DNA of 64,000 bases. Source: Paramarasmius palmivorus (Eukaryota > Basidiomycota > Agaricomycetes > Agaricales > Marasmiaceae). Where the stretch lies: contig JAYKXP010000195.1 of assembly GCA_037176845.1 (NCBI GenBank), positions 1-64,000 on the forward strand, written 5' to 3'. Under the pieces are notes generated by a model. It did no database searches. It was not told the DNA's origin and was given only the letters and a program-made list of their open reading frames with translations. Positions 4,930 through 61,269 of this stretch are shown piece by piece. The number at the start of each line of letters is the position of its first letter. The stretch's first letter is position 1. The translations under genes were made by a program, and so were the position numbers.

Positions 4930-5903
4930 ATGAACGCTCTCTTACCGCGTCAAAGCGACAACGATTCAGGCAAGTACATATACTTCTAATGGGTGTTATC
5001 TATTTAAACGCCCAGAAAGGTATCTTGTCTCTGTACATATACTAATCTTAGTCTCACGGCGCGACAAGGAAGTGACCTGGCTCGTACAACCCGGCCTTCT
5101 CGAACCCAGCCTCCTCAGGCTCCAACCCATCCTTCTCAAGCCCAGCCTCCTCGGGCTCCAACCCAGCCTTCTCCGTCCCAGTCTGCTAGTGACTCGACTG
5201 TCTCGACTGGCTCCGCTACCACAGAGCAAATCTCTGTACTGAATAGTGAATCAACGAGGCAAGTCCACGCAATTTCAGTGAATTGTTTATGTTAATATTT
5301 TAATAGTATGCAGCAAACACCGACAACAACGTATGTTAATTGCACCCTGCCACCAGTAACGCCTACCAATGCACGTTTTACAGAGTTTCCACTACCATAA
5401 CTGCCATCTCGACTCCCACGGTCAATACTTCCAAAACTCTCAGCAAGTGGTTGATAATCGGCTCGACCCTCGGATCCGTTATCCTCATCTGCATTATAAC
5501 CATATCTTGCATCTATCGAGGCCGTACCAGAAGATCATCTGCGAAGAAAGGCAGAACCATTGTCCCATACATGGTTTCTGTCCAAGTGCGTCCAAAGCTG
5601 GAAATGGTGATACCAACCCGTAATCGCAACGAGAAACTTAAACCAGACCACCATCGCCCCGTTGAGACATCCCTTCCATCAGGAATTACAGCATCACACA
5701 ATCCGTCATCACCCCCTCCAGTTCCGTTTGCCACCAAACCTGTAGCTCAACGACAGAGGCAGCGTGGCATTCGGAGGCACCAAGATAGCGGATGGAGACC
5801 CCCAATCGCGAGTTCGGGAGTAAGCTCGCCACCATCAGAGTCCGGAAGCGGAAGTAACTTGACGATGGTGGATATGCCGCCAGAGTACGAGAATGCGGTG
5901 TAG
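4930..5903 (+). CDS. PY-tail single-pass membrane protein (PPEY type)
   Basis: Model: exons 4930-4973, 5052-5258, 5307-5330 and 5384-5903, giving 264 aa with all introns phase 2. The second intron uses a GC donor (gag|gcaagt). The protein has a Pro/Gln-rich segment with two copies of a Q-P-P-x-A-P-T-x-P-S unit, a Ser/Thr-rich stalk, a membrane helix (W-L-I-I-G-S-T-L-G-S-V-I-L-I-C-I-I) followed by basic residues, and a cytoplasmic tail ending R-R-H-Q-D-S-G-W-R-P and D-M-P-P-E-Y-E-N-A-V. No cleavable signal peptide or ectodomain is seen at this ATG, so further 5' exons are likely and the start is tentative. The PPEY motif predicts binding to WW domains (established for Nedd4/Rsp5 ligases); the biological role is unknown. 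A broken duplicate lies at 12490-14270. Confidence 0.65.
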
Positions 5904-6440
5904 GAGGTTTGTTTGTAGGCGGTATAATATTGAAGGTGAGGTATACGCTACTCCGATTTGCAACGGATTGTTGATCAGGTAAACCAAAGTTCTTAGTTTC
6001 CACGCCATCGTACTCATGATACCGAACATTCGGTGATCGAGGCGATTCATGCGAAGAATTTCATCACTCCGGCAGGGAAGCGTGGTTTCCAATGTCCAAA
6101 GAAACATTTTCTATCGCTCGGCTGTTATCAGGACAGGGTATGCGCGCAACATGTACGTTTAGAGTTGTGATATGGTGCTACTTTCCGAGGGTGGCATGTG
6201 ATCGTGGAGGTAGATAGGACCAAGGACCTGTTGAATGAACAGCACGTGGGGATAGCATGGGTCAGAAGCACGATGTGATCCCTATCTAGTTCAACGTTTG
6301 TACTTATGCGCTATCTTGGCGTCTATCTGCGGCAGACCCGAAGAAGCTCTGCATATTAATATCATATTTCCTACCTCTATACGGAGTATCGGTGAAGACA
6401 CTAAGTACAATCTTTGAACACCCTGGCAAGGAATATCGAC
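5904..6440. other. Intergenic, between convergent genes
   Basis: The 3' flanks of the plus-strand PY gene and the minus-strand pseudogene meet here. No coding structure is seen. The first part is partly repeated after the broken duplicate at about 14280-14400 (caacggattgttgatca versus caacgaatcattaatc, then aaccaaagttcttagttcca). Confidence 0.5.
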
Positions 6441-7620
6441 TTATACCGCGGCATCGTAGCGAGATGACATCTCTAGTACATTTGTGTTCCCTGCATCAGA
6501 ACGTGGCGCCGAAGGTCGCCATCCACTGTCATCGTGATACAACACTCGACGTGCTCTCAACGAAGGTCCATGACCAGTGTCCGTAGCTTGTAGCCATTCC
6601 TGTTGATCTTCCAGGGCATTGTCCCGAATGATTAATAAAGAAACCTGCTTTCGGTTGGTGTCTTCCGACACTGGAACTATCCGGGCAACGTCCTCGTGCT
6701 GATCAAGGCATTTGACATTCCTCTGTTTCCCCTCCCGCCACATTCGAGGCTGATGTCATAATGGGATAAGGCGAAACCAATCGCGATTCCTTGGAGCGGA
6801 GAGATACCCTTCTTCTGCGTCGAAGAATCATAAATCCAACAGCAATGATAATCAACACGACAACTCCAGGTGCTGGACCAACATTTCGAGACGCTGATCT
6901 CAAACCGCTCGTGGCCATTGAAAATTCTTTAGTCAACGCCCAAATGGAATAGCTTTGAAGAGGATTTGTACCTGGCTTGGGAGCTAGTTGGATCACCGTG
7001 ACTACTAGAAGACGATGTATTCCTCGTACTACTGTGGGTTCTTTCAGCGTGTGATACAGAGCGTGAAGCATGCGAGCTCCCTGTGAACTCAGGACCTCGA
7101 CAGTCATTCTGACCACTTGAACTTGAAGCTGTAACAACTCTGCCTAATACCATGGCAAAGCTCGAAGTCGAGCTCCTTGTGAGTTCAGATGTTTGAGGCG
7201 AGCCTGTCAGATTGTTCCGAGTTGTATCAACCGTGGTACTTTGAGAGAATTAACTTGTGATAGTCACGCAGTATAAAGCATACCTGGTGGTTGTTGAGGC
7301 TGTTTGCACGGCGCTAGTTTTTGCTATGACCGTAATTTCAGAGGTGTATCTACCACCAATATCTATCCTGTTTGGATCACTGTTTTCACGATGGACGAAT
7401 CAAATTATGAATAGTGAATATGGATGAATCTGACCCACGAGTTCGTTTGTATGACATTTAATTCATACGTTCTGGCAGTGATGCAAGTCCAACCTTATGA
7501 TAATAAGCTAAACTGTACCACCCACCCTGGTGAGAGAGGACGGAATGTAACTGTGGACACAATGTCTACAGTCATTGGCAGCTCCTTTAGACATGTCACC
7601 TCCTTTAGACAGTGCCATAG
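6441..7620 (-). pseudogene. Broken PY-tail family copy with mutated PPxY (SSRY)
   Basis: Minus strand. The ectodomain end reads V-D-I-V-S-T-V-T-F-R-P-L-S-P-G before a GT donor (about 7530-7590). A Ser/Thr-rich stalk exon (about 6970-7153) ends at a donor, and a membrane helix (V-V-V-L-I-I-I-A-V-G-F-M-I-L) with five Arg and an L-V-S-P-Y-P box lies at about 6760-6890. The tail is then split by a frameshift near 6720: the upstream frame ends after A-S-N-V-A-G-G-E, while the conserved tail boxes R-V-L-Y-H-D-D-S-G-W-R-P and L-E-M-S-S-R-Y-D-A-A-V continue in another frame. The PP of PPxY has become SS. I could not find a complete ectodomain or signal exon. It is probably non-functional. Confidence 0.65.
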
Positions 7621-8104
7621 AACACATCTACAATACCATATCTTCCCCTGATAAAATTTTATACTGCTCTGCCATATATATTCTTCCTCTCATCATTTTT
7701 GTAGTACATTTGTATGAGCCAAAAAATACAGAAAATCAACAACCAGCCAGCATAGGTTCATGCCAAAAGTGTATGACATTTCCTGCAATATCAAGGGCCT
7801 TGATACCTGTCACATTTTAAAGGTATACAGCTATAGCACAAAAGAATTGTTTCCAATACTTCCCTGGGTTTAGAGGTGGATGCTGAAGCACTATAGGGTA
7901 TGATAGCTTGAAGCCTTAGTTCACCCACGACCTGGACACAACGAGGTTTTATAACAACGTGTGTACAAGTACTGCCAGTGGGGCAAAATAAGACTAAAGG
8001 AGGTAAAACAATGAGCTTGTTTATATAGTGGTGGTCCGGGTAAACAGGTAATGGGAATCCGGAGATGGTAAGGAACGCATGAATGTTGGGATGTAGGCGT
8101 AGGC
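7621..8104. other. No recognisable gene
   Basis: Short frames only. The left edge may contain the decayed N-terminal ectodomain of the neighbouring minus-strand pseudogene. A small direct repeat, ctcctttagacatgtcac/ctcctttagacagtgcc, lies near 7580-7610. Confidence 0.35.
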
Positions 8105-8480
8105 GTTACACCTCCGAACTCCGATTGTGAATACAGACCAAGGGGAGACCCTACATTGAGAGATGAATTGGACTTGGAGATGAAGACACCACTACTTCAA
8201 CGTACCAGATATCCTTAATGCAACCTTTCGACAACTTTCTTGGGTAGTAAAGGCTTTTGAGTGAGGCAAAAGGCCACAGACAAACATGCGAATCCGAGAA
8301 TGAAAAAAATGCGCCAGTCTCTTGCTTGACAGCTACTACCACATACAGATGTTAGAACTAAGGAATTGGCAGCTCCAGAGGACTAGCCTTTTGACGGACG
8401 GGGTTAGCGTTGACCGTTATATCGAGCTACATAGGGTTACATAAGGTTTGGTCCATCACCGCAACATCACCGTCACGTAC
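8105..8480. repeat. Segmental duplication, copy 2 (partner 4050-4480)
   Basis: Matches 4050-4480 in the same order and orientation. It ends just upstream of the DUF6535 gene. The expected continuation of the duplicated block resumes at about 12190, on the far side of that gene. Confidence 0.7.
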
Positions 8481-8771
8481 AAGACGCCATTTCTCGTTCG
8501 GCACATTCATTGCCGGTGTAGGAGATGGTGCGATCTGGTCGTCATCGAACGCCCATGGATATGACGTTGCGCGCAATCCTTCCACCGCTCAGGGAATGAA
8601 CTACTGACCTCGTTCTGCCGGATAATTTTGTCAACCTCTCCCGTGACCACTGCCAGTCTGCGGATGTTGGTCGGCTTATCATGCAGTGACGTGAAAGTTG
8701 CATGACAGCGAGTATGGTTCTTTACTATTTATTCTCTGAGCTTATACAGCTATCTCTCACCCTTTCGTCTC

Positions 8772-11735
8772 ATGTCTCACCCTTTGAGTTCACCAATTGT
8801 AGGCTCTGGTCCAACCATTGGACCATCGCACGCGAGATATGGATCAATATTTGGAATAGAGAGACAGTCCTCAGGATCTCTCCCGGCTTCAAGTTATCGC
8901 CCACGTGAGTTCTTTACACATCGATTTGTACCTGGAGACTGAATTCCATAGACACTCGCGATTATGAGCAGGAGTATCCCGAAGATCCTTACGGCGATGA
9001 AATGGGGAAGGATGCTCGTGTCTGGATGGCTTACTCGGATGAACGAGATTTATCTGACACGGAAATGCTCGGAGGCTGGAAGGATACCCTCGATATACTT
9101 TTGGTTTTCGTACGCGAAATATAGGTTTTTGTAGAGTCTGGCTGACAATTTCCTAGACAGGTTTATTTTCGGCTGTTGTAACAACCTTTGTCGTTGAGAC
9201 AACACAGGTATTGAGCCCAGACTACGCCCAAATCTCTGCTTCCCTTCTTCAGGAATCAGTCGCCCTTCAACGTGCCATTGCCATGGGTCAGTCCGTCGAA
9301 AGCGTCCAGAAGTCCGCCGTCAACGTTGACTCTCAAACGCATTCCTCTATTGACGTTTGGGTCAATGCCCTTTGGCTTGTCAGCCTGTGCTTCAGTCTTT
9401 CGACAGCGCTTATAGCCGTGTTGGTGAAACAATGGATACACTCATACATGTCATTCGTCTCTGGATCGCCCCGAGACCGTGCGCTTATCCGCCAATACAG
9501 GTACATGGGTATCCAGCGATGGAAAGTCTCATTCATCGTCGGAATTTTGCCCATTCTCCTTCATTTGGCACTATTCATATTCCTCGCGGGACTAGTTGTC
9601 TTCTTGTCCCCTCTCAACTTTGCAATATCATGGGTCCTCTTTGCAGTATCATTGCTTTGGTTCTGGTTCTATATTGCAGCAAACATCCTCCCTTTGATCT
9701 ATCCGGACTGTCCGTATAGATCTGATTTGACGTCGTTCATTCAATCCTCCATACATTTCATAATCAAACTAGGAGGAGCGATCGGACATGTCTTTGCATC
9801 TGCCCTGCGCTCGCTTGGAGAGTACGTTCACATCATTCCAGTCCACGAACACGAATCTCTACGTCGCGGGCTTCGTGCAGTTCTCAATGGGCTGAACACA
9901 TTGAATCAACTGCAGACAGAGAAATATCCAGCTACTCAATCGGACAAACCGGAGGAATTGGAGCTAGTATATGTGCGGAGACAGGAATCTTCACTGATCG
10001 CGGAATCTATCCTATGGTTATACGACACTTCAGTAACCAACACGCCCATAAATAGTATTGTGCTTCAAGCAGTAGCAGGATTACCTCCGGATTTTAAGGA
10101 TGTTCATAGGCTCAGGGATAGCGACATATGCGATTCCATCATTCAAATGCTCCGCGCATCATTTTCCAAGAAACTACAAATTTACTCTGGGCGGCAGAGC
10201 ATGGCAGAAAGGCTAGCCAGAGCTTACATCCAGCTGGAAGTTCCCAAACCGGGACCCTCAGCGATTCGTTCCTACTCAGGCGCCTTCCTCGAAATAGGAA
10301 GAGAGCTGGGTCAACCAGAATTTTTCGTTATTTCTGCCCTTATACAAGATAGACTGGAAGATCCTTCCCCTCTTTCAGAACTCCTCCGTCTCTTTTCAGA
10401 TAAACCTGGAGAGCTTCGTCTTTCCGCAGCGACATGGAAAGAGGTCCTGCGCGTCATCCATGACGGCCGTCGATTTGAGCTGGATACGCAATTGTCTATC
10501 ATTCAATTTTTGCTTTGGAGCGCTCCCCCAGGATACACAAAGCAGATATCTCCAGCAGATAAGACTCAAAGGAAGGAAATCGGCGACCTAGCATACTCTG
10601 ACCCCAGGCCAACTAGCTTGCGTGCCTTGTGGGAAGAGAGCAATACTTTCAAGAAAGGGATCGCCGAGGCAGTTCATATCATCCTTACTCATAATTTACC
10701 GGAAATAGAAGGGCAACAGGTGGGTCTTTCTATCAAACGTATATGACGAGTGCTCGAGCATCCCAAATCCAGCGAAGCGACCTATTTATGAGTCTGTATC
10801 ACCTGCGGTGGGCCCTCAGCATTTACCAAACAAGTATACGTCAAAGGCAAACAGAGGCAAAAAAGAATAGCGCAGCTAGTCCTCTGCCTCTGAAATCGGA
10901 AGATCTTGCAGCGTTGGAAGTAATCGAGCCCCATCTGCATGCTGTTATGGATCAGATTTCTTCTCGAATGCTTGAATGGGCACCCGATTCTACAGTGGAA
11001 CACAGACTTTGGGAGATAAATGCCTCGCTCATGTTCCCGTTTCCGTTTCAGCATCAAGGGACGTCGCCGCGCCGGATATTCCATAAACACCTGAACGTCA
11101 TGCTGAGATTATTAAAGCTCAGGTTATCGACGTTATACTTCCTTCAGTCATCTCGGAGTCAAAGTCTACGTAACGACTACCCCGAAATGGTTGTACAATC
11201 TTTGAAGACTTTGACTGCGAGCGGAAACTCCGAAAGTGACAGAACCCATTTCATTAAGGTATCGGAATTCATCTCCGAATTATTAGGTCTGCGTGATAAT
11301 AGTATCTACCCTGCGATTCATGCGGTATTCCTCCAGTGCGACGGCTTTCAGTATGTCCGAAAATATCTCGAGGCCTTTCGTATTCACACTGCTCATCCCC
11401 GTAGCCGAGCTATCCTTACCACGCTGGCACAGCTGATATACTCCTATTTGGAAGGTGTATACCCTAGTTACGGCAGTTTTCCAGGACCAGAGGTGGATCA
11501 CACTCGTTATTTGGCGCGCGAAGACCACGAACTGGATCACCGTACATGGTGCCATGACATTCTCGAGTTTATCCTATCACAGTACCGCGACGATCAAGTT
11601 ATACTTCAGGAGATCCCCAAAGTTTGTTTGCAGGACGAGTTTCCTAGACTGGCCGCTCTTCTTTACCGCTCTCCACCGACAAATATCTTTATTCCCCCAG
11701 CACCGACTCCAGATCCACTACCACGTCTTGACTAG
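8772..11735 (+). CDS. DUF6535-family membrane protein
   Basis: Model: exons 8772-8904, 8952-9109, 9157-10719 and 10773-11735, 938 aa, with GT-AG introns. The ATG at 8772 was chosen because only this frame joins exon 1 (M-S-H-P-L-S-S-P) in phase with exon 2. The N-terminal region has the features of the agaricomycete DUF6535 domain: D-E-M-G-K-D-A-R-V-W, a W-K-D-T-L-D-I-L-L-V-F segment, then T-G-L-F-S-A-V-V-T-T-F-V and S-L-L-Q-E-S. Further hydrophobic helices follow (L-W-L-V-S-L-C-F-S-L-S-T-A-L-I; I-L-P-I-L-L-H-L-A-L-F-I-F-L-A; a W-V-L-F-A-V-S-L-L-W-F-W-F segment), giving about four to five membrane segments. The remaining 600 residues are soluble and helical-looking. The family's function is unknown. 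The gene interrupts a duplicated block whose flanks are at 8480 and 12190, so it probably arrived after the duplication. Confidence 0.88.
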
Positions 11736-12189
11736 AACAACTCGCTCGTGGTTCGCGATATAATCTGGCCAGTCGTTTGAACGTGTCACAAGCATCTTAT
11801 ACTGCATCTTTAACAACTTCCTTGATTGATTAAAATGATTGATATTACTTAACTTAACCTACAGTATTACCAATATCCATTCTGAGTGCGCTTGTGCTTG
11901 GGAGTTCAGAAAGTTTTGAAAAGCGGAGTAAATGTAATTTGAAGACAACTTATGTATTGCCGATAGAAGGACTTCTTGATGATCTAACTACACGCGGCCC
12001 GAACCACTGTCTGCCTAAAACACGGTTCCGTTGTCCGATATTGGAGTGTTCGGAGTAGTGGCGTAAAGCCCTCACTGCCGGAGTTGGCTTCCTTTGGTGA
12101 TCCACTCGGACCACGGCTGTGTTTGCTCACATCGCTAGATCTTTCTCTATCGTTTTTTGTTCCATGCATGCGTTTTTAAGAAAGAGCGT
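11736..12189. other. 3' flank of the DUF6535 gene, no further gene
   Basis: A/T-rich 3' flank with no coding structure recognised. It ends where homology to the 4560-5960 block begins. Confidence 0.5.
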
Positions 12190-12677
12190 TAATTTGGATG
12201 GCTCTATATACCATGATATCAACAACGTTTCCAAGGAGTTATCCGCCGTCAAAATATAACATTCATTCTGCTTTATGGTCTTGTCAAGTCTAAGCTCACT
12301 ATCTATCTTCAGCTCTCAAGGATAAGGCCTATAACTATTACATTCATACCCAGTTTCTGAATACGCTTATGTTTGCGAATAGGTACACCAACTTTCCCGA
12401 CCAACATGTTACCTTGATTCGGATCAGTACTCACACGCCCTACATTGCAAATCCTGCTGATGGGTCATTTATACGATCAGATTTGTGCTTTCTGCAGTAC
12501 TGCACTTTCTCCTCCCATTTTACACCCCCGCATCTCGATTATTTTCCCGTGGTTTCAGATAGTAACGCTCGCTCTCAACTCGTCAAGACGACAACAGTTC
12601 AGGCAAGTAAATATACTTCTCATGGGTGATATCGCCAAAGGCTAGCAATGGCGACACCAAGTTGGAACGAGAAATGA

Positions 12678-12686
12678 CTTCGACAG
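12678..12686. repeat. Left 9-bp target site duplication
   Basis: The sequence cttcgacag immediately precedes the element and is repeated at 14042-14050. Confidence 0.85.
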
Positions 12687-14041
12687 GGTCGAAATGAAAT
12701 TCAAGGAACGCATGCAAGTAACGTTACTGACATCATGTCAGTGGCATGTACGTAACATGTGCGTAACTTGTCAGTAACGGGCGTTACGGACATTACAAAG
12801 TACTGAAAGGGAGTTACGGTGTAATAATTTGAAAATTGATTGGTGGATGTTCAGAGGAGCATACAAATTCTCTAGAACATCTATATAGCCCTCCAATGTA
12901 CCCTTACTCCCCGCTTGCGGTGAAGAGGCAAAGTGTCACTTACGTCAATTAAGCGCTGAACTGGCGCTGACTTCTCTCTCTGTGCGATGATGATTTTTAG
13001 GTCGCTTCCATAGATATAATGGTTTACCGCGGGATATATTTGGCCAAATAAGTCCCTTTTGCAATCATTGACGGCTGAAGTCACCAAATGACATAAAGCA
13101 TGTTCATTAAGGGCTGATATTATTCAGTATACTCCAAGTCCGCAGAATGGTCAAGTTCAGCTGTACAAACCTAATCTCCACCCAAGTGGACACTATATAG
13201 ATGAGGGGAGTACCGTGTAATTTGGATGGGTAATGCTATGTTGTCCATGAAAAACTTAGTAGTTTAGGCTAGCCGAGATACGTCGCAATGGCTAGTATGT
13301 AGTACATAAGATGTTAGATAGCACTCGTAGACTTAGTTTACACATGATTGAGAATGTAAGTAACATAACTTGATTCAAGGCAACTTGAAGGAACTGTAAG
13401 CAACTGTACGGTACATGTCGGTAACTGTAAGGAACGTGTCAGGGGATGCAAGTAACGTGTACGTAACTGAAAGGAAGTGTAAGTAACGTGCAAGTAACAC
13501 GTGTGTAATGGTGAGTAACATGCAAGGAATGGTGAGTAATATGTAAGTCACCGCTTAATGACATTCAAAGAGTTTTCAAGACCTCAAAATGCTCCGCTAA
13601 CACTGCAGGTCGCATACAGGTCGTCTAGGAGGCTTGAATTAAGCAAATAATTGCCTCTGGCAGAAAACTCGGCTCAAATTCTCTCAGTTATACTCAATGG
13701 ACAATGATAAATGCTCTATTTCACAACTAACAACTGTGCACTTAACCAAGTCGAAAATACGTTCCCTGGTAGTGGCTGATATGAATTTCCTCACCAGTGA
13801 TTGGCACTTACAGGCCGTGGGAAACATTGAATACGCACCTTCGGAGTGGGTGAAACGTAACTTGAACACGCTCGGAGCTTGACATTGGACAGGAAAGACT
13901 TTGAAGAGAGTCGATACATGATTTATGGTGAACTTTTATACAATGTAAGCGACATGTAAGTAGCATGTAAGTAACATGTCAGTAACAGTAAGTAATGTCA
14001 GTAACGTTACTTACATGCGTTACGTGAATTTTATAACGACC
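12687..14041. mobile_element. 1355-bp non-autonomous DNA transposon with 47-bp terminal inverted repeats
   Basis: The left end (12687-12733) and the reverse complement of the right end (13995-14041) agree at 41 of 47 positions, starting ggtcg and containing aagtaacgttactgacat in both. The element is flanked by the 9-bp duplication cttcgacag. Inside, near-terminal and central arrays of degenerate units such as aagtaacatgt and gtaacgtgtaagtaac occur at about 12709-12780, 13360-13550 and 13945-14010. No transposase-like frame is present. A 9-bp duplication is usual for Mutator-like elements; hAT (8 bp) is the alternative. The paralogous gene at 4930-5903 provides the empty site. Confidence 0.85.
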
Positions 14042-14050
14042 CTTCGACAG
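14042..14050. repeat. Right 9-bp target site duplication
   Basis: The sequence cttcgacag directly follows the element end ...aacgacc. Confidence 0.85.
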
Positions 14051-14507
14051 GAACCTCAGCACAACGTTGAGAAATCCCGTCCAGTAGGAACCACAGCATC
14101 ACACAATCCATTATTACCTCCCCCGATTTCGTTTTCCACCAAAACTGTAGTTAAACAACAGAGGCAGCGTGGCATTCGGAGACACCAAGATAGCGGGTGA
14201 AGACCCCCGATCGCGAGCTCGGGATTAAGCTCGCCACCATCAGAGTACGAGACTATGCTGTAGGAGCTTTGTTTGTAGGAGGAACGATGTTGAAGGTGAG
14301 GTATACATTACTCTGATTTGCAACGAATCATTAATCTTTTCAACCAAAGTTCTTAGTTCCATTGTTCTCGTATGCATAGACGCAGACTTCAAGTTTCTGT
14401 GATCAAGGCTAATTGAGTAGCACGTTCGAATAAAAATCCATTTCTCTACGGAAGAGGAGTCTAAGTCCCGACGTTCAATAGAATAGCTTCGATTAGCTCG
14501 ATCTTTA

Positions 14508-14985
14508 TCATGACAGAGTCCTCAGGTTATACAACTGCTCCAATTGCTGCATCACAGCGGGGCGGCAACTCAAGAACACTCGATTGTCCTGCATCCTCAA
14601 TAATCGAAGAAGATGACACGACGTGGCTGGTGGCGTCTGAATCCAGCAGTATGTGAGTTGCATCCGTTTCCTGATCGAGAAGTTGCCTCTTCTTCTCACC
14701 CGACACATTCAACGCTGATGTTGTATCCTGATAAGGCGAAACATCAGATAGTTCCATCATGAGACGAGCCCTCTTCGTTCTTCTACGTCGGGCAAGAATG
14801 ATGCCGATGACACCCATGACCATCAGCGCAACAATCCCTGCCACTGGATCAGCAATGCGACCGACATTCATATGAGACTGGTCACTAATGGTTGGGTCTG
14901 AAACGCTTGTAGGTTCATTTGGGATGCTGGAAGGGCTCTCAATGTCACCAGGAAATACAGAACTATGTGAAGGGTGAAAACAATC
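14508..14985 (-). pseudogene. PY-tail family fragment: stalk, membrane helix and shortened tail ending PPRC
   Basis: Minus strand. A short stalk exon reads V-F-P-G-D-I-E-S-P-S-S-I-P-N-E-P-T-S, then a membrane helix (G-I-V-A-L-M-V-M-G-V-I-G-I-I-L) with R-R-R-R, a D-V-S-P-Y-Q-D-T-T-S-A box, and a tail ending S-S-V-L-E-L-P-P-R-C-D-A-A-I plus four extra residues before the stop at 14527. The whole Y-H-D-D-S-G-W-R-P box is deleted and the Tyr of PPxY is Cys. Upstream, where an ectodomain should be, lies a GC-rich inverted-repeat sequence (14986-15360) and no family ectodomain. This is a relic with an open frame but without the conserved tail signals. Confidence 0.7.
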
Positions 14986-15360
14986 ACCTTGCTTGTCAAG
15001 TGGGCGGCGGGCGCATCAGCAAACGGACAAAATGTTGCCGCTTTTACAGCTTTTACGTCACTTCACAGAAAACTCTTCGAGCTCTGTATTTTACCACTCA
15101 GCGCAAAACCCGTATATAACTCATGCTTTGTACAGTACCTTGAATATATTTCTGGTTACCTTGAGCATAATCTTCCACGGGATGTGACAGATAAAAAACA
15201 TGGTTTCTCCTGAAAGGAACGTAGCCTGCCGCTTACGGCTTTCCCCCTTTTTTGGGCATATTTTCCCCCGAACAAGCAAAAAAAGCCACATCAAAGTGAC
15301 AAAAAAGTTTTTGCACAAATTCTGATGCCGCCGCCCGCCCGCCCCAGCCTCAATCAAGGT
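14986..15360. mobile_element. Candidate 375-bp element with imperfect GC-rich inverted termini
   Basis: The left end reads accttgcttgtcaagtgggc and continues with a cggcgggcgcatcag stretch. The reverse complement of the right end reads accttgattgaggctggggc and continues ggcgggcggcggcatcag. The match is imperfect, with a GC-rich indel, but is far from random and is followed by similar inner sequence (ggacaaaatg versus gtgcaaaaac). No target duplication is visible. It lies where the ectodomain of the neighbouring minus-strand relic would be expected. Confidence 0.5.
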
Positions 15361-50212: not shown

Positions 50213-50369
50213 CTGTAGAGGCAATCTTGATATCATGAGAATTACGAATAGGCTGAGTTATGACTGTGAGAAACCTAACGAAGGGGTTTCTTGTGGCAAT
50301 ACAGGGTTTGGGGTCACGATAGGTCGACAACTCAACAATGCGTAACATGTTGAAAATACAGTCACCTGA

Positions 50370-50905: not shown

Positions 50906-51334
50906 CTTGAGCGGCAATCCGGGCGTTTCAGGACAAGCGCATCGGAACCCTAACCTAACCAATGTCAACCGAAAATTTGGTCACAGTCACATCCATCACA
51001 CGTTGAATCACTCCCTCGACATTCATGATACCAAACGTTCCTCACAACTACTCATCCTTCTCGAATTACTCCTAGATCACAAACTCAGACAGGCTGACGT
51101 CTGTCCCTCAATTCTGCCACCACAAGACTCTCGAAGGTTGGATGCAGGTGTTTGCTTGTTACGTCAATTCCATCTTAATTGAACCTTCTCCAGCCAAACG
51201 TACGGCTCTACCGCCTTCCCTCAATTAACCTTGAAACTTCGGAACTGGGGATAGAGCAGAGATATATCAGAGGGACATCGGGCGATTTCGGGAATGGTAC
51301 CAGGTACAGTCGTCCTCTCTGTTGCATATAGTCC

Positions 51335-51803
51335 CAGCAGAGCTACTCTAACGTTTCTTCCCGCTATTTTCCGCTATCTCAGTAGGGCTACTCTAACCCC
51401 GCCTCCCACCGCCTCCCCGCCATTGCCGGTGATAGTTCTTCCACCCAAAGACACTTGCACGGTCCTATTGTTCGAACACAAGATCAAACATAAGCTCAGG
51501 ATTGGTTATCACTACTCTTTCCGCCACCTACCTCTCAACCTTACTTCGCATGGCTCGCCCTGCTAGTCAACATTGAGAAGACTTTGCCACTCGTGCCTGC
51601 ATCTGCCATCCTGTCTCCCCTTCCCAGCATCCCACTACTGGTGGCGTTCGCTACGTGGAATTGGAGTGTCGAATATGGGAAGTTTTGAAGACAGGTGTTC
51701 CTGGATCATGTTGGGTTGGGTATCGTTGAACGGTCGGTATCATTTCACCGCGGATCGATTGAAAGCGATATCAAGGATAGATCAGGTCCAGAGAGACAGA
51801 GAG
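51335..51803. repeat. Spacer module copy 3
   Basis: Same landmarks as the other three modules: cagagctactc at the left, a gttgggttgggtatcgttga segment and a right end in gagaggtatgtg. The coding-like frame is degraded (V-G-L-G-I-V-E-R-S-V-S). Confidence 0.7.
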
Positions 51804-51980
51804 GTATGTGTCTCGTGGTTATACATCCAAAGAACGGATGCTCACATCCTTGCAAGCATACATACCAATATCTATTTCCTGCCGTTGGCGTTCTTCATAT
51901 CCTGTCGGCAGCGTGTGCCTATGGGTATGGTCACCCCTCTTCGTTCAGTTTCAAGGAGGCTGTTTAACGTAACTTGACTA

Positions 51981-52423
51981 CCTATAGCCGTCCCCACAGA
52001 GCTACTCCAACCCTTCCTCCGACCACCGTCCACCATTGCGATACTCCCTCCAACCAGAGTATCTTCTACATGCCCCCACTACCGGCCCGAAATTGAACAT
52101 AATCCCCGGATTGGCCTATCATTACCCTCTCCACCATATGCTTCTCGAAATGGCTTCTCATGGCTCGTCTTGCTACTCAATGTTGACAACTTCACCCCTC
52201 GTCCCTTCATCTGACATGCTTTATCTCTTTTCTAGTTTCCCACTCCCGGTGGCGTTCTCTACATGGAATTGGAGAGCTGAAAATTGGAAATTTGAAGATA
52301 GAGAAGTTTAGACGATTGCTTCTGGGTCATGTTGTTTCGGGTATCATTAGATGGGCAATATCATCCATAGCGGATCAATTGGAAGCGATACGGAAGATAG
52401 ATCGGGTCCATGAAGTCGGAGAG
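51981..52423. repeat. Spacer module copy 4
   Basis: A tandem second copy within the same spacer. It has the longest open reading: L-L-L-G-H-V-V-S-G-I-I-R-W-A, then S-S-I-A-D-Q-L-E-A-I-R-K-I-D-R-V, to gag|gtatgt. Confidence 0.7.
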
Positions 52424-52832
52424 GTATGTACCCTGCGGTTATACATGCATAGATCACACGCTCACTATTCGCAAGCATTCGTGTCAATACCTGGTTCCTG
52501 TCGTTGACTTCTTTCACATCCTTTGGGGATCGCGGGCGTATACATGTTCACCGTGTGTCTTGCCTCCAACGCGGAAGTGATGCCTCATCTGGTTCTTTTA
52601 CGATGGTATTCATTACCTTCGTGCACCATTATTCGCCTCTTGTTGTATCAGGATCATACGATGATCAGTGTCCATATCTTGTTCCGCTCTGCGGCCGAGT
52701 TGAATGTGTCAGGATCTGGAATGGATGGCGCATTCGGTCAGATAGGTGATGATCAACGAGCTACGAGATCATGAAGGTCTCAAAAAGGGCGTTTTTGGTT
52801 TTTGTCTCGACGATATCTCCCCACCTGCGAGG

Positions 52833-54210
52833 ATGGTATACAAAGCGACGTACGTGTCTAGGCTCTGCCCTTTGTAATTATTTCTGAACAAGTTCAAGGT
52901 ACCTAGCTACGGCTTCGTTGGTGTCAATCAGGTGGCGTTGAAGATCACAGACGTCAACCCCAAATCGCAGACACTACCCCCAGGGAGTACGACCGCCGAG
53001 CTCACCATAACTTGGGAAACGGAAAGCGACGCTGAGACGACGGAACAAATAGCACTTTTCTTGCATTTGGATGGGGAACCACTCCTGCAAGGAACCACAG
53101 GTCCTGTAAACGTGTCCCAATCCCCATCCAAAGTCGCATTTACCAATGTGGGCGCAGGGTGCGTACGCTTCATCCTTCTGAAGACCCGTAGAGCTCAACC
53201 ATTATCGTTAGAAAGTACGTAGTATATGCAATCAAAAATTCAACGTAAATGCTTTATTGCCCTCTAGGAATTTTCATTATCTTATCGAGCACTCAGCTTT
53301 AGACCAATTGGTGTTTCTCCAGATATTGAAATAAAAGCGCAAGATCCATTGGGAAGGTGAGAAGTATTGCTACTATGTTATACTTGAACACTGAAAGCAA
53401 ATCCTGTTCTATACAGCACTCCATTACCCCCTGTCACAGATCCACGGAATGATGATCCATGGCAAACTTCTACAACCACAACCGGAACGCCACCCACAAT
53501 TGTGACGCCTACGACAACGCAGACGACCTCATCTATGACTGCGAAAATGACTGATATTGAGCAGGCCGATACCGAGATAAGCACAACTGGTTCAAGTGGG
53601 ACGGTTACTCCCGCCAACAACACCGCCAACGATTCTGCGATAAGCTCCTCGACAAATGACAGCTTCCGGGGCTCAAACCCAAGGTGTGGTTAACTTCAGT
53701 TCGGCACTTGCACGTCCTAACCTTCTCATACAGCGTTGCGCCCAGTAGAAACAGTCTTGCGCCCAATGGAAACAGTTCGGACATCCAAGACCGGCACCGT
53801 GGTCGTATGGCTGGTCTCATAGTCGGAACCGCCTCTGGTGTGGTTGTATTGATCATCATCGTCTCTTGTGTCATCACACTCCGGCGCCGGGCTCGGAGAA
53901 AGGAGCTTCTGTCTGTGCAAACAGCGTCCGTTTCTCCTTTCCCAGATACGGCATCGGCATCTGATACGGCAGGTCGAAAACAACGGCAACCAGTGGCTCA
54001 GAATCATGATCAACACGCGGAGAAGCCTCATGATGCTTCTAGTCTTGATGTGGTAGACAGCAGGAAGTCCCGGAAGCATTACAGGAATCCCGAAGAGAAC
54101 TTCGATTGAGATACCACGATGATAGTGGTTTCAGGCCTCTGCCTCCCCCCTCTGATGCAGGAGATTCAAATGTTCTTGATGTACCACCTCGGTATGATGC
54201 TGCGGTTTAG
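52833..54210 (+). pseudogene. PY-tail family copy with damaged signal peptide and frameshifted tail
   Basis: Second gene of unit 3. The ectodomain exon is open (A-L-K-I-T-D-V-N-P-K-S-Q-T-L; A-E-L-T-I-T-W-E; V-A-F-T-N-V-G-A-G). A 1-bp deletion relative to 37417-37480 puts the hydrophobic signal (Y-L-A-T-A-S-L-V-S) out of frame with it. An alternative donor keeps the ectodomain frame but loses the signal. The Thr-rich stalk and membrane helix (L-I-V-G-T-A-S-G-V-V-V-L-I-I-I-V-S-C-V-I-T-L) are open. A deletion of about 10 bp near 54053 (the D-V-V-L-D-G-R-Q-Q-E region) shifts the frame and gives a stop at about 54109. The boxes Y-H-D-D-S-G-F-R-P and V-L-D-V-P-P-R-Y-D-A-A-V remain out of frame up to 54210. 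Confidence 0.8.
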
Positions 54211-54622
54211 TGTAGAGTTGAATTTGATACCCCTTCTTTGACCATCGATTTGAATTATGAATGCGTACACGACCAGGAGATAATTGAGGGTGCATGAAGG
54301 TTTTCCGATGTGTTTATGGTAGAAAATTTCAACGGTCATGGTGAGTCGCACGCGAATCGTGAGACCTGATCATATTCAATGAAGCGACTGCGCCAACGAT
54401 CAGACCTAGAACTCACGTGTTCTATGCATTACTATCGATAGTTTTCATCTTTTCATACAATTTCTTGAAACCATCAATCATATGTTGAGGAAGATGCGAG
54501 GATCAAGGTGAGAACATATCTCACAGATAATCATGCTGTTGAGATGCAGTGACAATATGACCCATATATGTCGAGTCCTGTTGCCATTCCTCATTGACGT
54601 CTGTCCCCTTACTCTTTTGAGA

Positions 54623-56092
54623 ATGTTTTCAAGCTGGACGTGGATGTGACTTTTCCTTTGCTTTTATACGATGCAAATGCTTACACATTCGAAAGCTATC
54701 TACCTCTTGGGTGCGTTCAAGGATTCAAGATAATGGATGTCAAGCCAGACGCGCCAACCATAAATGAAAACGCCGTTACCCTACCCTGGACTGGATGGCA
54801 CACGGCGATGGGCCATTCACCGTTGGTTTATGGTGCTGACCCAGGCAAGACAACACCATCCACCGTGCCACCCCCCGTGCGACGACACCTCTCAACAAAG
54901 AAGCTCGGCCGATGATAGTCACATTTACAGCACAGGATCTCTCTCAAGGGTGAGGACGATCACAGATAGCCAGTATTATTCAGTTTTGCTAAATACATCC
55001 AGTGCTTACTTTGTATCCGGCGGAGAGGAAAAGTAAGGCACCAAATCTCATCTTGAAACACTAACATTCAACTATATACAGAGATTTTAGTGACCTAACG
55101 TCATTGTTCCAAGCCGCATTCACCTTCCCCATTTAATGTTAAGCCCGGGACCAGGCAACAGACCAACATCTACGTATGATGTATGCTGCTTTTCTAATTG
55201 CGAAATCTGCGTTCTCATCTGTTTGATGATAGAGTTGTTAGACACATACCACCATCGACGGCCAGACTCCTTACAACCACTGTAACCAACACAGCATCTG
55301 CATCTTCATCGATAAGCTCCTCGACAAACAATAGTCAGGTAGCTGCCACGACAACAGCTGGGAATAGTACAGTTGTTGCACCGATGTCGTCCCCCTTCAC
55401 GTTCGAATGATGCTCTCGACTCTCTCGACGGCAATCAAAGGTTTCCCTTGAGCCCGCCAGTTCAGTTGGTGAAGATGTGTATAACCAGACACAATCATCT
55501 AACTTGGGTGGTACTTCGTGTGGAACGGGTATCTTCTGGTGATATTCCAATTAGTGCAACCCCCACGCCATCCCCAGAACCAAATGCAAACAGCGATAAA
55601 TCCTCCATCATCGGTGGAACAGTCGGCGGTCTTGTATTCGTCCTCATTGGAATCTTGGTTCTAATTTATCTTTATCGACGGTCAAAGCGCCAAGCTCCTT
55701 CCGGACTCTTCAACAAGAAGAAAACGCTCGGAGATCGTGACAAATCCGCCGAGCACCCCATTGACGGTGCATTCAGCCCGCCTTATCAAACACGCAAAGA
55801 AATCATACGATACACCTCACGAGCGGGTTCTCCCTGTCGATACAGAAACTATATAGGCACCGTAACAACGGAAAAGGTTCACCAATTTTCCAGAACGGAT
55901 AGACAAATGGAGATAGAGGAACGCATTCAGCAGTTACAGGCGCAGTTGATTGGCTTGCACAATCGGTCAAAGGTATCGGGAGAGGAACCTGCAATGGAGG
56001 AGATTAGACAGAAAATTGAGAATCTGGAGGCGTTGAAGGAGGGGGATTGGGCATTGGAGTTGTGTGATGAGAAGCCGCATGAGATGGTGTAG
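54623..56092 (+). pseudogene. Hybrid: A-P-T-I-N-E ectodomain gene fused to a CC-type membrane/tail region
   Basis: The 5' part (54623-55410) matches the PY genes at 39233 and 48993: M-F-S-S-W-T-W signal exon, F-K-I-M-D-V-K-P-D-A-P-T-I-N-E-N ectodomain, and the stalk exons including the tatgatgtatgctgcttttc intron. A 1-bp deletion near 54782 (N-A-V-T-L-P-W) and a second frame change break the ectodomain. From about 55410 it continues not into a PY tail but into a CC region, open from 55560: membrane helix I-I-G-G-T-V-G-G-L-V-F-V-L-I-G-I-L-V-L-I-Y-L, then F-S-R-T-D-R-Q-M-E-I-E-E-R-I, a coiled coil, and D-E-K-P-H-E-M-V at 56092. The 3' half is well preserved; as a whole it is probably non-functional. 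Confidence 0.78.
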
Positions 56093-56836
56093 TAATGGTT
56101 GGGTTGTGGATCAAACTGAAACGTGAACTTCGGTTTTCATAAAGTTTTGTATGAGCAATTATACCTTGTAGCCAAATATTCTGTGAGGAGACGAGCTTCA
56201 TGATGGAGATAACGTTGTTGGATTGGTGCAGTATAATTCCTGTAATACTACACACATTAAATGTTCTCTTCCTCCAACCACTGTCAATTCAAAGACCGAG
56301 CTATGCAGTCATTCCATTGAATAAGCTTTGTTAACCTCACGGGCTCGAAAACAGATGGTCATCGTTTGAGGCGGTTGTTGACCTGTTCTAGTGTGCAATG
56401 GGCTGGTCTATATACCTATTGCTAAACTGGCAACTAGTTCGAACCTGGTAAAGGTGAAAACTCCCGTTGGACGCCAGTTGGTGATTCGGAGCTGACGATT
56501 TTGCGCTGCTGTTTTTTGTTGTTCTCCTTGGTTTACAATTCCACTTTCGGTGGTCTCGCATCATCGGCTTACTCTGAGTCACGAAAGAATGTCGCTGAGA
56601 CCGATCCGTATCTCGTTCGACATCCTGTGTTTACTCACTGTTGTACGATGAGATTATTCATGCCTGCTTTGAAACCATCATGTGTAGACCATCATAATGT
56701 TGGTTGTCAAAGTCAGAGCCAAAACTGTTGATGTTCTCGCTTTGTTTTGATGATCTGGCAGAGTTGATAACGGAGAAGGTCATAAAATGGAGGGTGCTAA
56801 AGCTCGTGTGAGCCCAAACGTCCAACATATTCGAGA
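56093..56836. other. Intergenic, no gene seen
   Basis: Short frames only, between the hybrid copy and the next family copy. Confidence 0.4.
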
Positions 56837-57942
56837 ATGGCACTCCTATTGATGTACGTATCCGTTAAACTTTAACTTTCCATTCCTTCACATCTTCATG
56901 AAATCCAAGCTGTCTAGTCGGGATCAAGTATGTCCAAGCGTTCAATATAATAGATGTCAGTCCAAAACCGGTCGTAGAGCTAGTAAATCACACTGCTACG
57001 CTTACTATCACTTGGCAGGCGGAGGATGGAGAGACAGTTGAAAGGTTGATGTTTGCCTTGTTTCCTCGCAGAGGGACCACGAAAGGGCTTGGAATAGCAA
57101 CAGCATCGCCTTCCTCAGGCGATAACCCATTGAAAGCCACGTTCACCTCTCCTGGCTTTGCTCCTGGGTATGTGACGGTACACCTTTGGTGAATAAGAGC
57201 TCAACTTTGCGGCCTAGAATATATAGACTAGTCGGAATTCAGAGAATGGACAGGTTAGTACTCAACTCTAGGTCTAAAGAGTTGCCTATGAACCAAAAAC
57301 TCTAGTTTTCCACCTCTCGAAGGGGAATACACAGAGCCTATCACTGTCAGAAAGCAGGAAAGTACCATACTAACGACGTAAGTGATGACTTGGGAATTCT
57401 TGGGATCCATCGTTCAAATATCTATGATCATAGCTCGGCTGCATCGATTACAGGTGCAGTCTCACAAAGTGCTCAGCTGCCATCCTTTACGGCAACTTGG
57501 ATTCATCCACAATCGTCGCCATCCATCCCACCAGGCACATCAAAGGCAAACGACCCCTCTCGCCAGGATGCAGGCCAAACCGCCGGTTTGATCGCTGGTG
57601 CAATCGTTTTACTCGTTGTAGCCGCAGGCGCCATCACCTATTGGCGAAAAAAGAAATATCTTTCCTCGATCAATCAAGCACCATCTCTACCTTCCCAGCA
57701 TCAGCTTCTGATATGACGGCAGTTCGTGACCAACGGCAACCGCATGTCCAACATTATGGTTCTGTTCCAGAAATAACGGCAACAGCACAGGATCATGGTG
57801 AGGGAATTTACCCTGGAGTCCCGATATCGTCGCAACAGCAGAGAGAGCGTCGTGTGAGGTTTCATGATGATACTTAGTAGTGGTTGGAGACGATGGAGTG
57901 TTTTGGACTCACCACCTGAGTCGAGATAACACTGCGATGTAG
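56837..57942 (+). pseudogene. Diverged PY-tail family copy with broken tail
   Basis: Exons 56837-56853, 56910-57167, 57227-57253, 57306-57377 and from 57434, all joined in phase 2. The signal peptide is M-A-L-L-L-I-C-L-V-G-I-K-Y-V-Q-A. The ectodomain has F-N-I-I-D-V-S-P-K, A-T-L-T-I-T-W-Q, L-M-F-A-L-F-P and G-F-A-P-G. The stalk and membrane helix (L-I-A-G-A-I-V-L-L-V-V-A-A-G-A-I-T-Y-W) with R-K-K-K are in frame. That frame stops at 57715, while the tail continues in another frame (S-T-I-S-T-F-P-A-S-A-S-D, then R-R-V-R-F-H-D-D) and meets a second stop at the SGWRP box. The final box (V-L-D-S-P-P-E-S-R) has no Tyr. It could still make a short-tailed protein. Confidence 0.7.
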
Positions 57943-59687
57943 TTTTAGGCTAACTGACACCTGTCATCCATACTACTACCTAACGTGACATCTTTGAAGT
58001 TCGGAACTTCGGGAGCACAGTTTTGGGAGCTGGGCGCTAGTGTACCTGGTTTGAACTGGTCTACCGAGTCACTGTCACGCTGTCACACGAACAGATTTTT
58101 TTCCTTCAACGCGACATGCTTTTCGCCTTGTTCCTATCCGCCAACCCTCTCCTCTTCACACCAAATCCTCGGTATGGGCTACAACCCTAAGCTATTCTAG
58201 ATATCTAAACCTTCAAGAGCACCCGCCCCATGTTCAAAGATCGCATCATCGGTATGTTGATAATCGCCTGTTGTGGTGACATTTTGATAATGTACCTTCC
58301 TAAAGCCTGTTATCCCCGCTGGAGCGCTTATGACTACGGTGTCATGGATTGTGGGCAGGAAGAGCGAACACGTATAGCAGAGAAGATGGCACACAGGTAC
58401 GAACCTTTACAAATGTACCGCAGAACTCCGCATGACAGAGAACCAAGCCTCCCGACTTTCGCCTCCTCCCCTATATCTTTGCAACAAGACCACATGATGT
58501 TGGAGCTCCCTCATGTTCCTCCCCAACCCACCCATATCGACCTATACGCGGCTGAATGCTCGGGATAGAGCGTGTAAATGCTACCTTTCCACTCGATTAG
58601 CGTTTCTTTCGACACCAGCATCACCATCAGCGCATCTCATGGCCTTCTCTTGCAGGACGCGCCCCACCCACAACAAAAGCTCTCCGTCTACTTCCTGCCC
58701 ATCCAGCTTCTGAAATCGCTCCAGTCTCCGTCATATCGTCATACTCTTCCCTCCGCTGGACGTCTCATACCTCTCATGTTCCCTGGCTCCTGTTCTACCG
58801 CGTAGGGGTTAGCATGAACGAGTTCCGTGTCCAGTATGTCAACTCATCTTCGATGGTGTACTGTTCTAACCATACACGTGTATGAACACTTCTACCTCAA
58901 AGTTAGGATAGAATGCGTGGTCATACTTGAAACAGTACAGAGCGCAGGAATGTATTCGGGAAGGCTTAAGGGAACGGAGATTATAGCATGTAGAGGTGCG
59001 GATATTTGACCCCATTGTTGTGCTGCGTAGCCTAATCGACCACGATCCATACAGACCGGCAGATAAACCTCCCCACCAAGTCAGTCTATCTCTATCGACC
59101 ACATCTTTTTAGATATCACAGAAGCCCTTCTTCAGCGTTCTACCCGTGTACTCGATTTCCCCATGACAGGGCTCATCATCTGAACACTATCATCCCTTCT
59201 TGATTGGTATCGTGCGTCAACACCAGAAACGAAGTCTGCTCCTCTGATTTCAACATACACCTATATCTCGAGATCTACATGACTTCCGACACCTCTCTCG
59301 TGCAGCTTCCTCTGTATCTCCACTCCACCTTGCATCTAATACAATGACCCTTCGTATTGTTTCCCCATATTCATTCGTGGTGACATGAGGAAACGAATTG
59401 ATCAGAGAACTTTCTCCCGTGTAACACAGCACAAAGCGAGATACGCATCAAAGGTCTCACCAAAACGTCGCTCGTATCGTTGACCCCGTCGTTAGAGTAC
59501 TTGTTCTCGCCATCACCATTGCATCCGGCATTACTATTCTTCGTGATGCCAAATGATGAGATCCTAAACCACTCAAGTGTGTAAGTCAAATGTCCAGGTT
59601 AGGTTAGGTACACCCAAATAAGTAGAGTCCTATACATATATATGCGAACAGTCCTCTTCTGTTTCAATCACTCCTCATTTCCATAAA
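57943..59687. other. No recognisable gene
   Basis: About 1.7 kb with short, mutually overlapping frames (for example 58230-58568) and no recognised domain, membrane helix or family motif. Confidence 0.4.
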
Positions 59688-61269
59688 CTACATTGCATGC
59701 TCATACTCCGGCGGTATATCAAGCAAATCACTTCCATCTGACTCTGGTCTCCGATTCGGAGGCTGAGAACGAGGCCTCCATCCACTATCCTGGTGTCTCC
59801 GGATTCTGGTTTGTCTGGTGGTTGCAGGTGAAGGCGGTGGGATATCTGGAAGGGGTAGTGAAGGTGGCAAAGAAGGTGGTGGTACATGTCGAGGAGCCTT
59901 CTCATTTTCAGACTCGGAGAAGCCGTAAGCGTACCATCCTCGTGTAGTGGGAGTAGTCGGCGTTTGGATTGTGGTAGAGTACCGCGTAGGTGTAGGCGGG
60001 TGAACGCTCTGAGAATCAGAACCGTCATCACGGTTCACATCTACTGAGTGATAGTACCAGCTATTGCCCCGGGATAATCTTGTGCTAGTTCGGGTCAGAG
60101 ATTGACTCCGAACGGTAGCAGGGTAAGGTGTAACCTCACTCCCATTTCTGCCCTCGGAAAGCGGCTCGTAATCTCTCCTTCGTCTGACACGATACCGATA
60201 AATGAGGATAGCGGTGAGGAGGAGAGCTGCAGAGGCTGTTGTTGCGCCAATGATTGCAGAACGATGTTCTTGGAAAAATATCGCGGACGGGGAGCTGTCA
60301 TCTGAGTTTGTGTCTGAGTTTGTGTCTGAGTTCGTGTTCGTGTCGGTGGATGTTGGCGGAGAACGTGAAATGTCCTCTGTGTTTACGCCGATATCTGTAG
60401 TTGGAGAATCGGTATCCGGTGCGAGTGACGGTGGAAGTCCCACTCCGAGTCGAACGTATATTGATAGTCGTAGTTGGAGCTTCTGTGGGTGGAAGCCTCG
60501 TTTCGTATGTGACGGGACTGCTGGATGGTTCTGACAAGGTCGTTGATGGATCTGGAGCCGCGCACCAGTGACCGCCAAAGTCGACGTTGGCTCGGTCGTG
60601 CTTGTACTTATAATATGGGTTTCGGAGACAGGACTAGTCATGTTTTGCCGCACTACAGAGTCTGTTTGGTGTCTGTGGTAGGGAGCGGCGGTGAGGATAT
60701 GATAGATGATACGTTTAAAACGGATGAAAGGTCGGTTGGAAGGGAAATGGGGGGAACAGAAACTTGGATGGAGATGTCAGAAGGGAGAATGGATATGATT
60801 GGAATAGTGTGTATATTGGGAAGAGAAATGCCAGGAACGGTGAGAGTGGCACCAGGGAATGGTAAGCGTAGCCCCCGCAGCCGCGATAGTTACACCGAGA
60901 GCGCCGAACGTCACACCTGGCACGGTGAAGATGATATCAGGTGCAGTGAGTGTGACATCTGGAATGCCGATAGGAATGAGGGATTTAGTGGTACTAGTAG
61001 CGATATCTGTGCTACTGGGTGTGATAGACGAAACGTCGGTATCGATATCGGCGGAGGAAAGATTGGTAGCGGAGGTGTCACACGAAAGGATGTCCAGGGT
61101 TAAGTTCACTGATATGTAGGACTTGAGGAGTCACAAATTAGAAGGAATGGGCGGGGTACTCACCTGGTATTGGGCATGCACTCGCCAAAGCAATCTTCCA
61201 GAAGATTATTAGTGGGATAATGGCCGTGTTGAAGGAGCGGATGGTGTAAACGAGTGAAAGACCGACCAT
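59688..61269 (-). CDS. Divergent PY-tail single-pass membrane protein (PPEY)
   Basis: Minus strand. A likely first exon (ATG at 61269) reads M-V-G-L-S-L-V-Y-T-I-R-S-F-N-T, then I-I-P-L-I-I-F-W-K-I-A-L-A-S-A, and ends cca g|gtgag, a phase-1 junction unlike the phase-2 introns of the array. A Ser/Thr-rich region follows (S-S-I-T-P-S-S-T-D-I-A-T-S-T-T) and then a series of exons I could not join with certainty. The last exon has an acidic S-D-T-N-S-D-T-N-S-D-D micro-repeat, a membrane helix (S-A-I-I-G-A-T-T-A-S-A-A-L-L-L-T-A-I-L-I-Y), R-R-R-R, and a long tail ending R-R-H-Q-D-S-G-W-R-P and L-L-D-I-P-P-E-Y-E-H-A-M. Tail boxes are closest to the genes at 4930 and 30560. The 3' half is well supported, the 5' half tentative. 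Confidence 0.68.

Follow-up and report, generated by a model that had tools for sequence, protein, structure and literature searches.

What kind of gene family occupies the first 64,000 bases of contig JAYKXP010000195.1 (C195) of the mushroom-forming basidiomycete Paramarasmius palmivorus (Agaricales, Marasmiaceae), and what might it mean that its members carry two different cytoplasmic tails? This window (bases 1-64000 of the 79,875-base contig, in a genome of 68.3 Mb and 393 contigs) contains 21 tail loci on both strands, 15 with a PPxY-type tail (PY) and six with a coiled-coil tail (CC), in agreement with a sequence-only reading that had proposed about 20 receptor-like copies, each ending in one tail or the other. 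In our best reading, which we regard as an even call, the cluster is part of a very large family of type-I single-pass variable recognition receptors with paired-receptor wiring.

Exchange of tails between related ectodomains

Related ectodomains had been proposed to occur with both tail types, and this is borne out by an ectodomain tree, by alignments of genes with opposite tails, and by P0016 (PY) and P0021 (CC), which are 68% identical over residues 1-117. The tree comprised 41 rows (23 PY, 18 CC): all 37 units with both parts on C195 and a second contig, C93, and four public proteins. Mapping the tail label onto it required 14 changes; 500 shuffles of the labels gave a mean of 13.6, with 357 of the 500 as low, and the supported (starred) branches alone force at least seven. 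Tail changes are thus no fewer than with random labels, so that ectodomain ancestry does not predict the tail, and the tree rules out an old division into two subfamilies with separate sets of ectodomains.

We also aligned six cross-tail gene pairs and three same-tail control pairs. Five of the six have a stretch, beginning about 200 bp upstream of the ectodomain and reaching into the stalk, in which identity is mostly 70-100% (one pair has 58-73% in its stalk); beyond it, identity falls to about 40%. The drop is located within or just before the codons of the transmembrane (TM) helix in two pairs, and about 100-200 bp earlier, in the late stalk, in three. The sixth pair (C93 163247/182257) is too diverged for a sharp edge, with 73-78% identity in the ectodomain and 41-58% in the stalk. 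Tail identity remains high in the three controls, except for one 60-base window. Base by base, the similarity of pair 185443/187536 reaches the codons for I-I-G-A-x-V-G-S-V and fades there; that of pair 166210/168500 weakens about 50 bp before, with I-I-G-G-A-V-G-G kept. These sequences show that a 5' module consisting of upstream flank, signal exon, ectodomain and stalk has been repeatedly re-joined to the other tail, with the switch between the late stalk and the TM helix. The earlier idea that surface modules are paired with two signalling outputs is therefore strongly supported by tree and alignments as far as the pairing goes, and its signalling part is read from the tail motifs.

Two versions of the locus

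Most of 1-62264 on C195 can be aligned with C93 in reverse orientation, at 83-88% identity in blocks over 1-38761 and at 95.5% over 49652-62264; no collinear C93 match was found, at the thresholds used, for 7568-15875 and most of 38761-49652. The two contigs are probably two nuclear haplotypes rather than a segmental duplication. Matching of tails by position and strand gave 17 pairs, and tail type is kept in all 17. Four tails on C195 and five on C93 have no placeable partner; a part of them may be alleles that have diverged strongly.

We calculated nonsynonymous and synonymous divergence (pN and pS; Nei-Gojobori proportions, uncorrected) for all testable pairs between the two contigs, with the tails at the same loci as an internal control for ectodomain divergence. 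Twelve ectodomain exon pairs, 45-100% identical in amino acids, have pN 0.142 and pS 0.185 (pooled ratio 0.77). The 17 tail pairs are 84-100% identical, apart from three fragments of 13-19 codons at 62-80%, and have pN 0.039 and pS 0.109 (ratio 0.36). At loci with both parts, the ectodomain is less identical than the tail in eight of ten, equal in one, and more identical in one, where the tail is a 13-codon fragment. A hand-picked subset that lacked the three identical ectodomain pairs and seven of the tails pointed in the same direction (0.78 for eight ectodomain pairs, 0.31 for ten tail pairs).

The best C93 match of a tail is its own allele in 16 of 17 cases, and that of an ectodomain in seven of ten; in all three off-allele cases the ectodomain matches a gene whose tail is of the other type. 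One ectodomain lineage can therefore be joined to PY on one contig and to CC on the other. The ectodomain of the CC gene at 34377-35863 is closest to that of a PY gene on C93, and the ectodomain of P0001, a PY gene, is closest to that of a CC gene there.

Loci in the window

Tail loci were located with iterated profile hidden Markov models in the window and its flanks at a domain threshold of E < 0.05, a set that takes in the PY tails at 14162 and 18651, which are truncated or partial. The profiles recognised an ectodomain exon upstream of 11 of the 21 tails, and for these the single shared architecture proposed earlier holds; at three further places, 2235, 50387 and 56935, the profiles recognised an ectodomain unit but no tail. 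Across C195 and 200 kb of C93, iterated profiles for ectodomain, TM helix, PY tail and CC tail gave 43 ectodomain, 50 PY and 21 CC hits in the last round (E < 1e-3), a few of these hits being fragments of a single split copy. Three loci in the window match public P. palmivorus gene models: P0001 (VNI00_017885) is the gene at 43551-44987, P0021 (VNI00_017877) was located as exact exon pieces at 21701-23073, and P0009 (VNI00_017887) matches the 3' part of 48869-50212. The public models agree residue by residue and the motifs are kept across many copies, which excludes a frame artefact. The features are as follows.

5340-5903, + strand: TM helix and PY tail (DSGWRP ... MPPEYENAV)
6444-7143, - strand: TM helix and PY tail in two frames, PPxY changed to SSRY
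14162-14197, + strand: truncated PY tail
14530-15015, - strand: TM helix and divergent PY tail (LPPRCDAAI, Tyr lost)
16002-16703, - strand: TM helix and PY tail
18651-19860, - strand: ectodomain exon (19582-19806) and partial PY tail (18651-18692)
21701-23073, - strand: complete CC-tail gene P0021, with an AlphaFold2 model; ectodomain exon 22741-22950, TM helix 22127-22216, CC tail 21701-21913
25482-25949, + strand: TM helix and PY tail
27728-28974, - strand: CC-tail gene; ectodomain exon 28666-28887, TM helix 28118-28216, CC tail 27731-27937
31222-31734, + strand: TM helix and PY tail
32318-33892, + strand: CC-tail gene, tail in two frames; ectodomain exon 32378-32614
34377-35863, + strand: CC-tail gene; ectodomain exon 34434-34655, TM helix 35333-35434, tail 35651-35857
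37406-38737, + strand: PY-tail gene; ectodomain exon 37454-37678
39193-40697, + strand: PY-tail gene; ectodomain exon 39328-39546; C93 counterpart could not be placed
41316-41854, + strand: CC tail, apparently frame-broken, ectodomain not recognised
43551-44987, + strand: complete PY-tail gene P0001; ectodomain exon 43611-43850, TM helix 44577-44711, PY tail 44871-44984
47866-48513, + strand: TM helix and PY tail (SPRY); C93 counterpart could not be placed
48869-50212, + strand: PY-tail gene, 3' part covered by P0009; ectodomain exon 49088-49306, TM helix 49802-49936
50354-50753, + strand: ectodomain exon and TM helix, tail not recognised
52878-54210, + strand: PY-tail gene with stops between tail pieces; ectodomain exon 52935-53159
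54598-56092, + strand: CC-tail gene, ectodomain exon frame-broken on C195 and intact on C93 (P0005)
56902-57877, + strand: ectodomain exon (56935-57156) and weak partial PY tail
59688-60776, - strand: TM helix and PY tail (DIPPEYEHAM)

Protein anatomy and ectodomain fold

P0001 and P0021 share the order signal peptide, multi-exon ectodomain, Ser/Thr/Pro stalk, one TM helix, basic stretch and tail. The split signal peptide described earlier is present in both public models, interrupted after about residue 7, and the ectodomain, previously put at about 80 residues, is corrected to about 100, with one exon of about 75 and two or three strands in the following exons. PY tails contain an I-x-P-Y-P-like motif, then R-x-H-x-D-S-G-W-R-P, and a C-terminal D-x-P-P-x-Y-x-x-A. 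In 19 aligned PY rows that we selected, D-S-G, R-P and P-x-x-Y-x-x-A are invariant throughout; within PPxY, the first Pro and the Tyr are invariant and the second Pro is present in at least 90%. The PPxY motif is a ligand for the WW domains of NEDD4-type ligases such as Rsp5, and the PY tails, by their sequence, have the cytoplasmic PPxY that would be expected of NEDD4/Rsp5 substrates or adaptors. The CC tails carry F-x-[KR]-x-[KR]-M-V, R-T-D-R-Q-M-E-I-E-E and G-D-W-A-type motifs, which are also present, with variations, in Moniliophthora roreri.

The AlphaFold2 model of P0021 presents the ectodomain as an immunoglobulin (Ig)-like beta-sandwich with a constant core and variable loops, and 293 of 296 letters inserted relative to P0021 fall in its loops. 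The modelled ectodomain (residues 17-120) contains no cysteine, so that the canonical Ig inter-sheet disulphide is absent there. A fold search with the ectodomain matched only generic Ig-like sandwiches, and we do not read its matches to SIRP, CD47, CTLA-4, TIG and CGTase folds as homology. Matches in a PDB sequence search were mostly to the TM, stalk and juxtamembrane parts; in the ectodomain columns there were marginal Ig-type matches to titin (E 0.07-1) and one to NOMO2 (0.0015).

The sequence-only reading recognised no named family, and Pfam scans support this for ectodomain and tails: no model passed its cut-off in P0002, P0005, P0007 or five scanned pieces, and 24 ectodomain exons gave a best E of 0.0011, with a different family each time but one. 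Only a TM-segment model surfaces, PF21314 (TM_ErbB1), precomputed on P0011, P0022 and P0024 and below cut-off in P0005. Several candidate families were rejected. Membership among the WSC wall-stress sensors is rejected, as no WSC model was among the 11 families listed for the 24 ectodomain exons (E up to 10) or in the other Pfam scans. Mid2 (PF04478) has a cut-off of 23.2 bits; one CC protein scored 10.0, near the TM helix, and the model was unlisted for the others; UniRef labels P0001 and P0003 'Mid2 domain-containing'. As to fungal NLR or HET proteins, the receptor proteins scanned contained no NACHT/NB-ARC, STAND or HET model. A Kre9/KNH kinship of the ectodomain was also considered, but the Pfam scans listed no such model, and no profile-profile test was made. 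Open-licence PubMed Central text, judged on titles and abstract starts, yielded no recognised description of this receptor family. On a 147,534-base contig, P0013 and P0015 have PY tails with an ectodomain that is different by eye, suggesting that PY tails may occur with more than one ectodomain family.

Family size and distribution

In the whole genome, one PY-tail query gave at least 150 matches (150 of 163 candidates scored) and a second gave 106, at least seven of them absent from the first list, and two CC-tail queries gave 30 and 31; these counts include both contigs of apparent pairs, some split tails and some weak matches, and so do not give the number of genes in each nucleus. Matches of equal score stand at collinear positions on C104 and the far part of C93, and likewise parts of C77 and C137, which suggests that C104 is their partner.

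Three protein searches matched P. palmivorus proteins, P0008 (JGI), P0014 (ENA) and two M. roreri proteins, the latter for the CC tail only; no M. roreri PY-tail relative surfaced in two of the searches. Within the searched region, the CC tail of the M. roreri protein P0025 is 62% identical over 83% of the length, and that of P0026 is 55% identical over 94%. P0026 is 41% identical to P. palmivorus P0028 with nearly the whole length aligned, and P0025 54% identical to P0022 over stalk end, TM helix and tail. A restriction to Agaricomycetes, proposed earlier as a mark of recognition genes, fits in that all named matches with E < 1e-3 are from P. palmivorus or M. roreri, although the reach of the searches was limited: one of them scored only the 7,995 candidates sharing most words, where three other matches had E > 1, so that absence in other organisms is not demonstrated.

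Neighbouring features

Within the receptor cluster, a 445-residue open reading frame (ORF) at C93:122420-123754 has a HET-like stretch (PF06985, 16.7 bits, cut-off 22.5) and matches C104 only in two pieces (C104:17662-17914). On contig C75 (242670-257882), two HET-domain matches, at 246684 and 248515, have a CC-tail match on one side and PY-tail matches on the other. The receptor cluster on C93 also contains pieces of Tc5/DDE_1 transposases and a CxC2 cysteine cluster of the kind associated with KDZ transposases (C93:174249-176958 and 82026-82772). In the window, a DUF6535 gene (PF20153, first ORF) at 9211-11735 has no blastn match on C93, and the C195 block with this gene is, by sequence comparison, apparently an insertion or deletion between the two locus versions. 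ARAGORN placed a tRNA-like gene with unassigned anticodon at 20460-20544, and no second copy was found of the DNA at 62700-63990. A scan for telomere repeats found a single internal pair of CCCTAA, at C93:107251, and nothing at the contig ends scanned, so that a subtelomeric place is not demonstrated.

Interpretation and alternative explanations

If the cluster encodes variable receptors with paired-receptor wiring, the proteins would be located at the cell surface, where the loops of the modelled ectodomain may bind a variable ligand. The PY tail would then recruit a WW-domain protein, most simply an Rsp5/NEDD4 ubiquitin ligase, and so trigger ubiquitin-dependent endocytosis or signalling, and the CC tail, by dimerising or by binding a partner with a coiled coil, may lead to a different output. 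New ectodomains could reach both outputs through unequal crossing-over or gene conversion, so that, we propose, one ligand could be read by two opposed or complementary receptors. In its boldest form, which we consider unlikely, this would be a fungal surface recognition system of re-assorted Ig-like ectodomains and two alternative outputs, in which one lineage is PY in one nucleus and CC in the other nucleus of the dikaryon, and might be what underlies somatic recognition in basidiomycetes, whose basis is missing so far.

Several observations weigh against this interpretation. Ten of the 21 tails in the window have no profile-recognised ectodomain (a TM helix is recognised in eight of the ten), so that a single architecture is demonstrated for about half of the copies. 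Several copies look damaged: one ectodomain (54718) and three tails (33685, 41687 and 54010) are spread over different frames or interrupted by stops. The PPxY motif is intact in ten of the 15 PY tails and not in the other five, reading SSRY at 6444, SPRY at 48397 and PPRC at 14542, with the tails at 14162 and 18651 cut. One ectodomain subgroup (C93 52470, 60543, 63897, 71176 and 77711) has PY in all five members. The two-haplotype assignment is drawn from synteny, the 95.5% block contains three ectodomain pairs that do not differ between the contigs, and the third off-allele ectodomain match is narrow (288 versus 260 bits). Paralogous pairs have the same contrast but a weaker one (0.65 for ten ectodomain pairs, 0.36 for eight tail pairs). 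Single-pair pN/pS runs from 0.25 to 1.12, plus one pair with a ratio of 16, which rests on 0.2 synonymous changes, and because the pooled ectodomain ratio is below 1, relaxed constraint could explain the fast ectodomains.

That last point would also suit a birth-and-death expansion of cell-wall sensors or adhesins, in which similar tandem copies recombine, ectodomains drift, and the tails are two old subfamilies without paired logic. The broken copies and transposon genes within the cluster, the UniRef Mid2 label, and the type-I topology with a Ser/Thr stalk, which resembles wall sensors, all agree with such an expansion. We nevertheless find it somewhat unlikely: simple subfamily divergence would not leave the tail label unclustered on the ectodomain tree, the tails remain constrained beside fast ectodomains, and the Pfam scans listed no WSC model and a Mid2 score below cut-off. 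Self/non-self recognition (somatic incompatibility), with polymorphic ectodomains reporting identity on contact and tails giving opposite verdicts (accept or reject), would account for haplotype-like contigs that differ in content and sequence, and has in its favour the HET-like gene, below the Pfam cut-off, in the same cluster at C93:122420. It also suits the available account of basidiomycete non-self recognition and somatic incompatibility, described as poorly understood and possibly involving three to five loci, some perhaps highly polymorphic (PMC8229728). However, both versions occur in one assembly, so that a pure identity label must tolerate co-expression, and 29 HET matches are scattered over the genome, so that one beside the cluster proves little; we judge this reading quite improbable. 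Receptors for microbes or a plant host, sensing competitors, bacteria or plant signals and shaped by an arms race, would likewise have fast ectodomains, a large family and the predicted Ig-like fold, but they are inseparable from the other readings on sequence alone, and with no host or microbe link in the present results we think them very improbable; P. palmivorus is a cause of plant disease, but this is not used as support here.

If the paired-receptor reading is true, a very large, clustered, haplotype-divergent single-pass family with interchangeable tails provides a concrete candidate set, and the paired-receptor design was invented independently outside animals. The tail swap can be checked from sequence in any further strain. 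Compared with the sequence-only reading, the larger family, the re-joining of tails, the contrast between ectodomain and tail divergence, and the predicted Ig-like fold are new.

Comparison with known systems

Among wall sensors, Wsc1-3, Mid2 and Mtl1 are, like the receptors here, type-I single-pass proteins with a Ser/Thr-rich stalk and a short tail. Their families are small, whereas P. palmivorus has well over a hundred tail matches. Fungal NLR and HET allorecognition genes, in turn, form large, variable families (NLR numbers: PMC10197012), and this review of fungal immunity, as far as its main text goes, is centred on intracellular receptors and does not use the terms 'cell surface' or 'surface receptor'. 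The closest relatives by sequence are M. roreri Moror_2463 and WG66_003862 (P0025 and P0026), uncharacterised proteins with the same M-V and RTDRQMEIEE motifs in the CC tail.

NLR and HET proteins are intracellular. A closer likeness in organisation is found in the paired receptors of vertebrates, which include KIR, LILR and SIRP. In the accounts available for Siglec-11/16, CEACAM and CD300, single-pass proteins bear mutually similar ectodomains, Ig-like as is predicted here, on differing cytoplasmic tails, and gene conversion is described as homogenising the ectodomains (PMC5701461, PMC5112662, PMC12447643) and keeping them alike on oppositely acting tails (PMC5701461, PMC5112662). The fungal family likewise has closely similar ectodomains on two different tails, and ectodomain exchange, be it by recombination or by conversion. 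By contrast, the fungal proteins are from another kingdom, with no sequence relationship detected, their modelled ectodomain is cysteine-free, and their tails are PPxY and coiled-coil. The likeness to vertebrate paired receptors is a convergence of logic, not membership.

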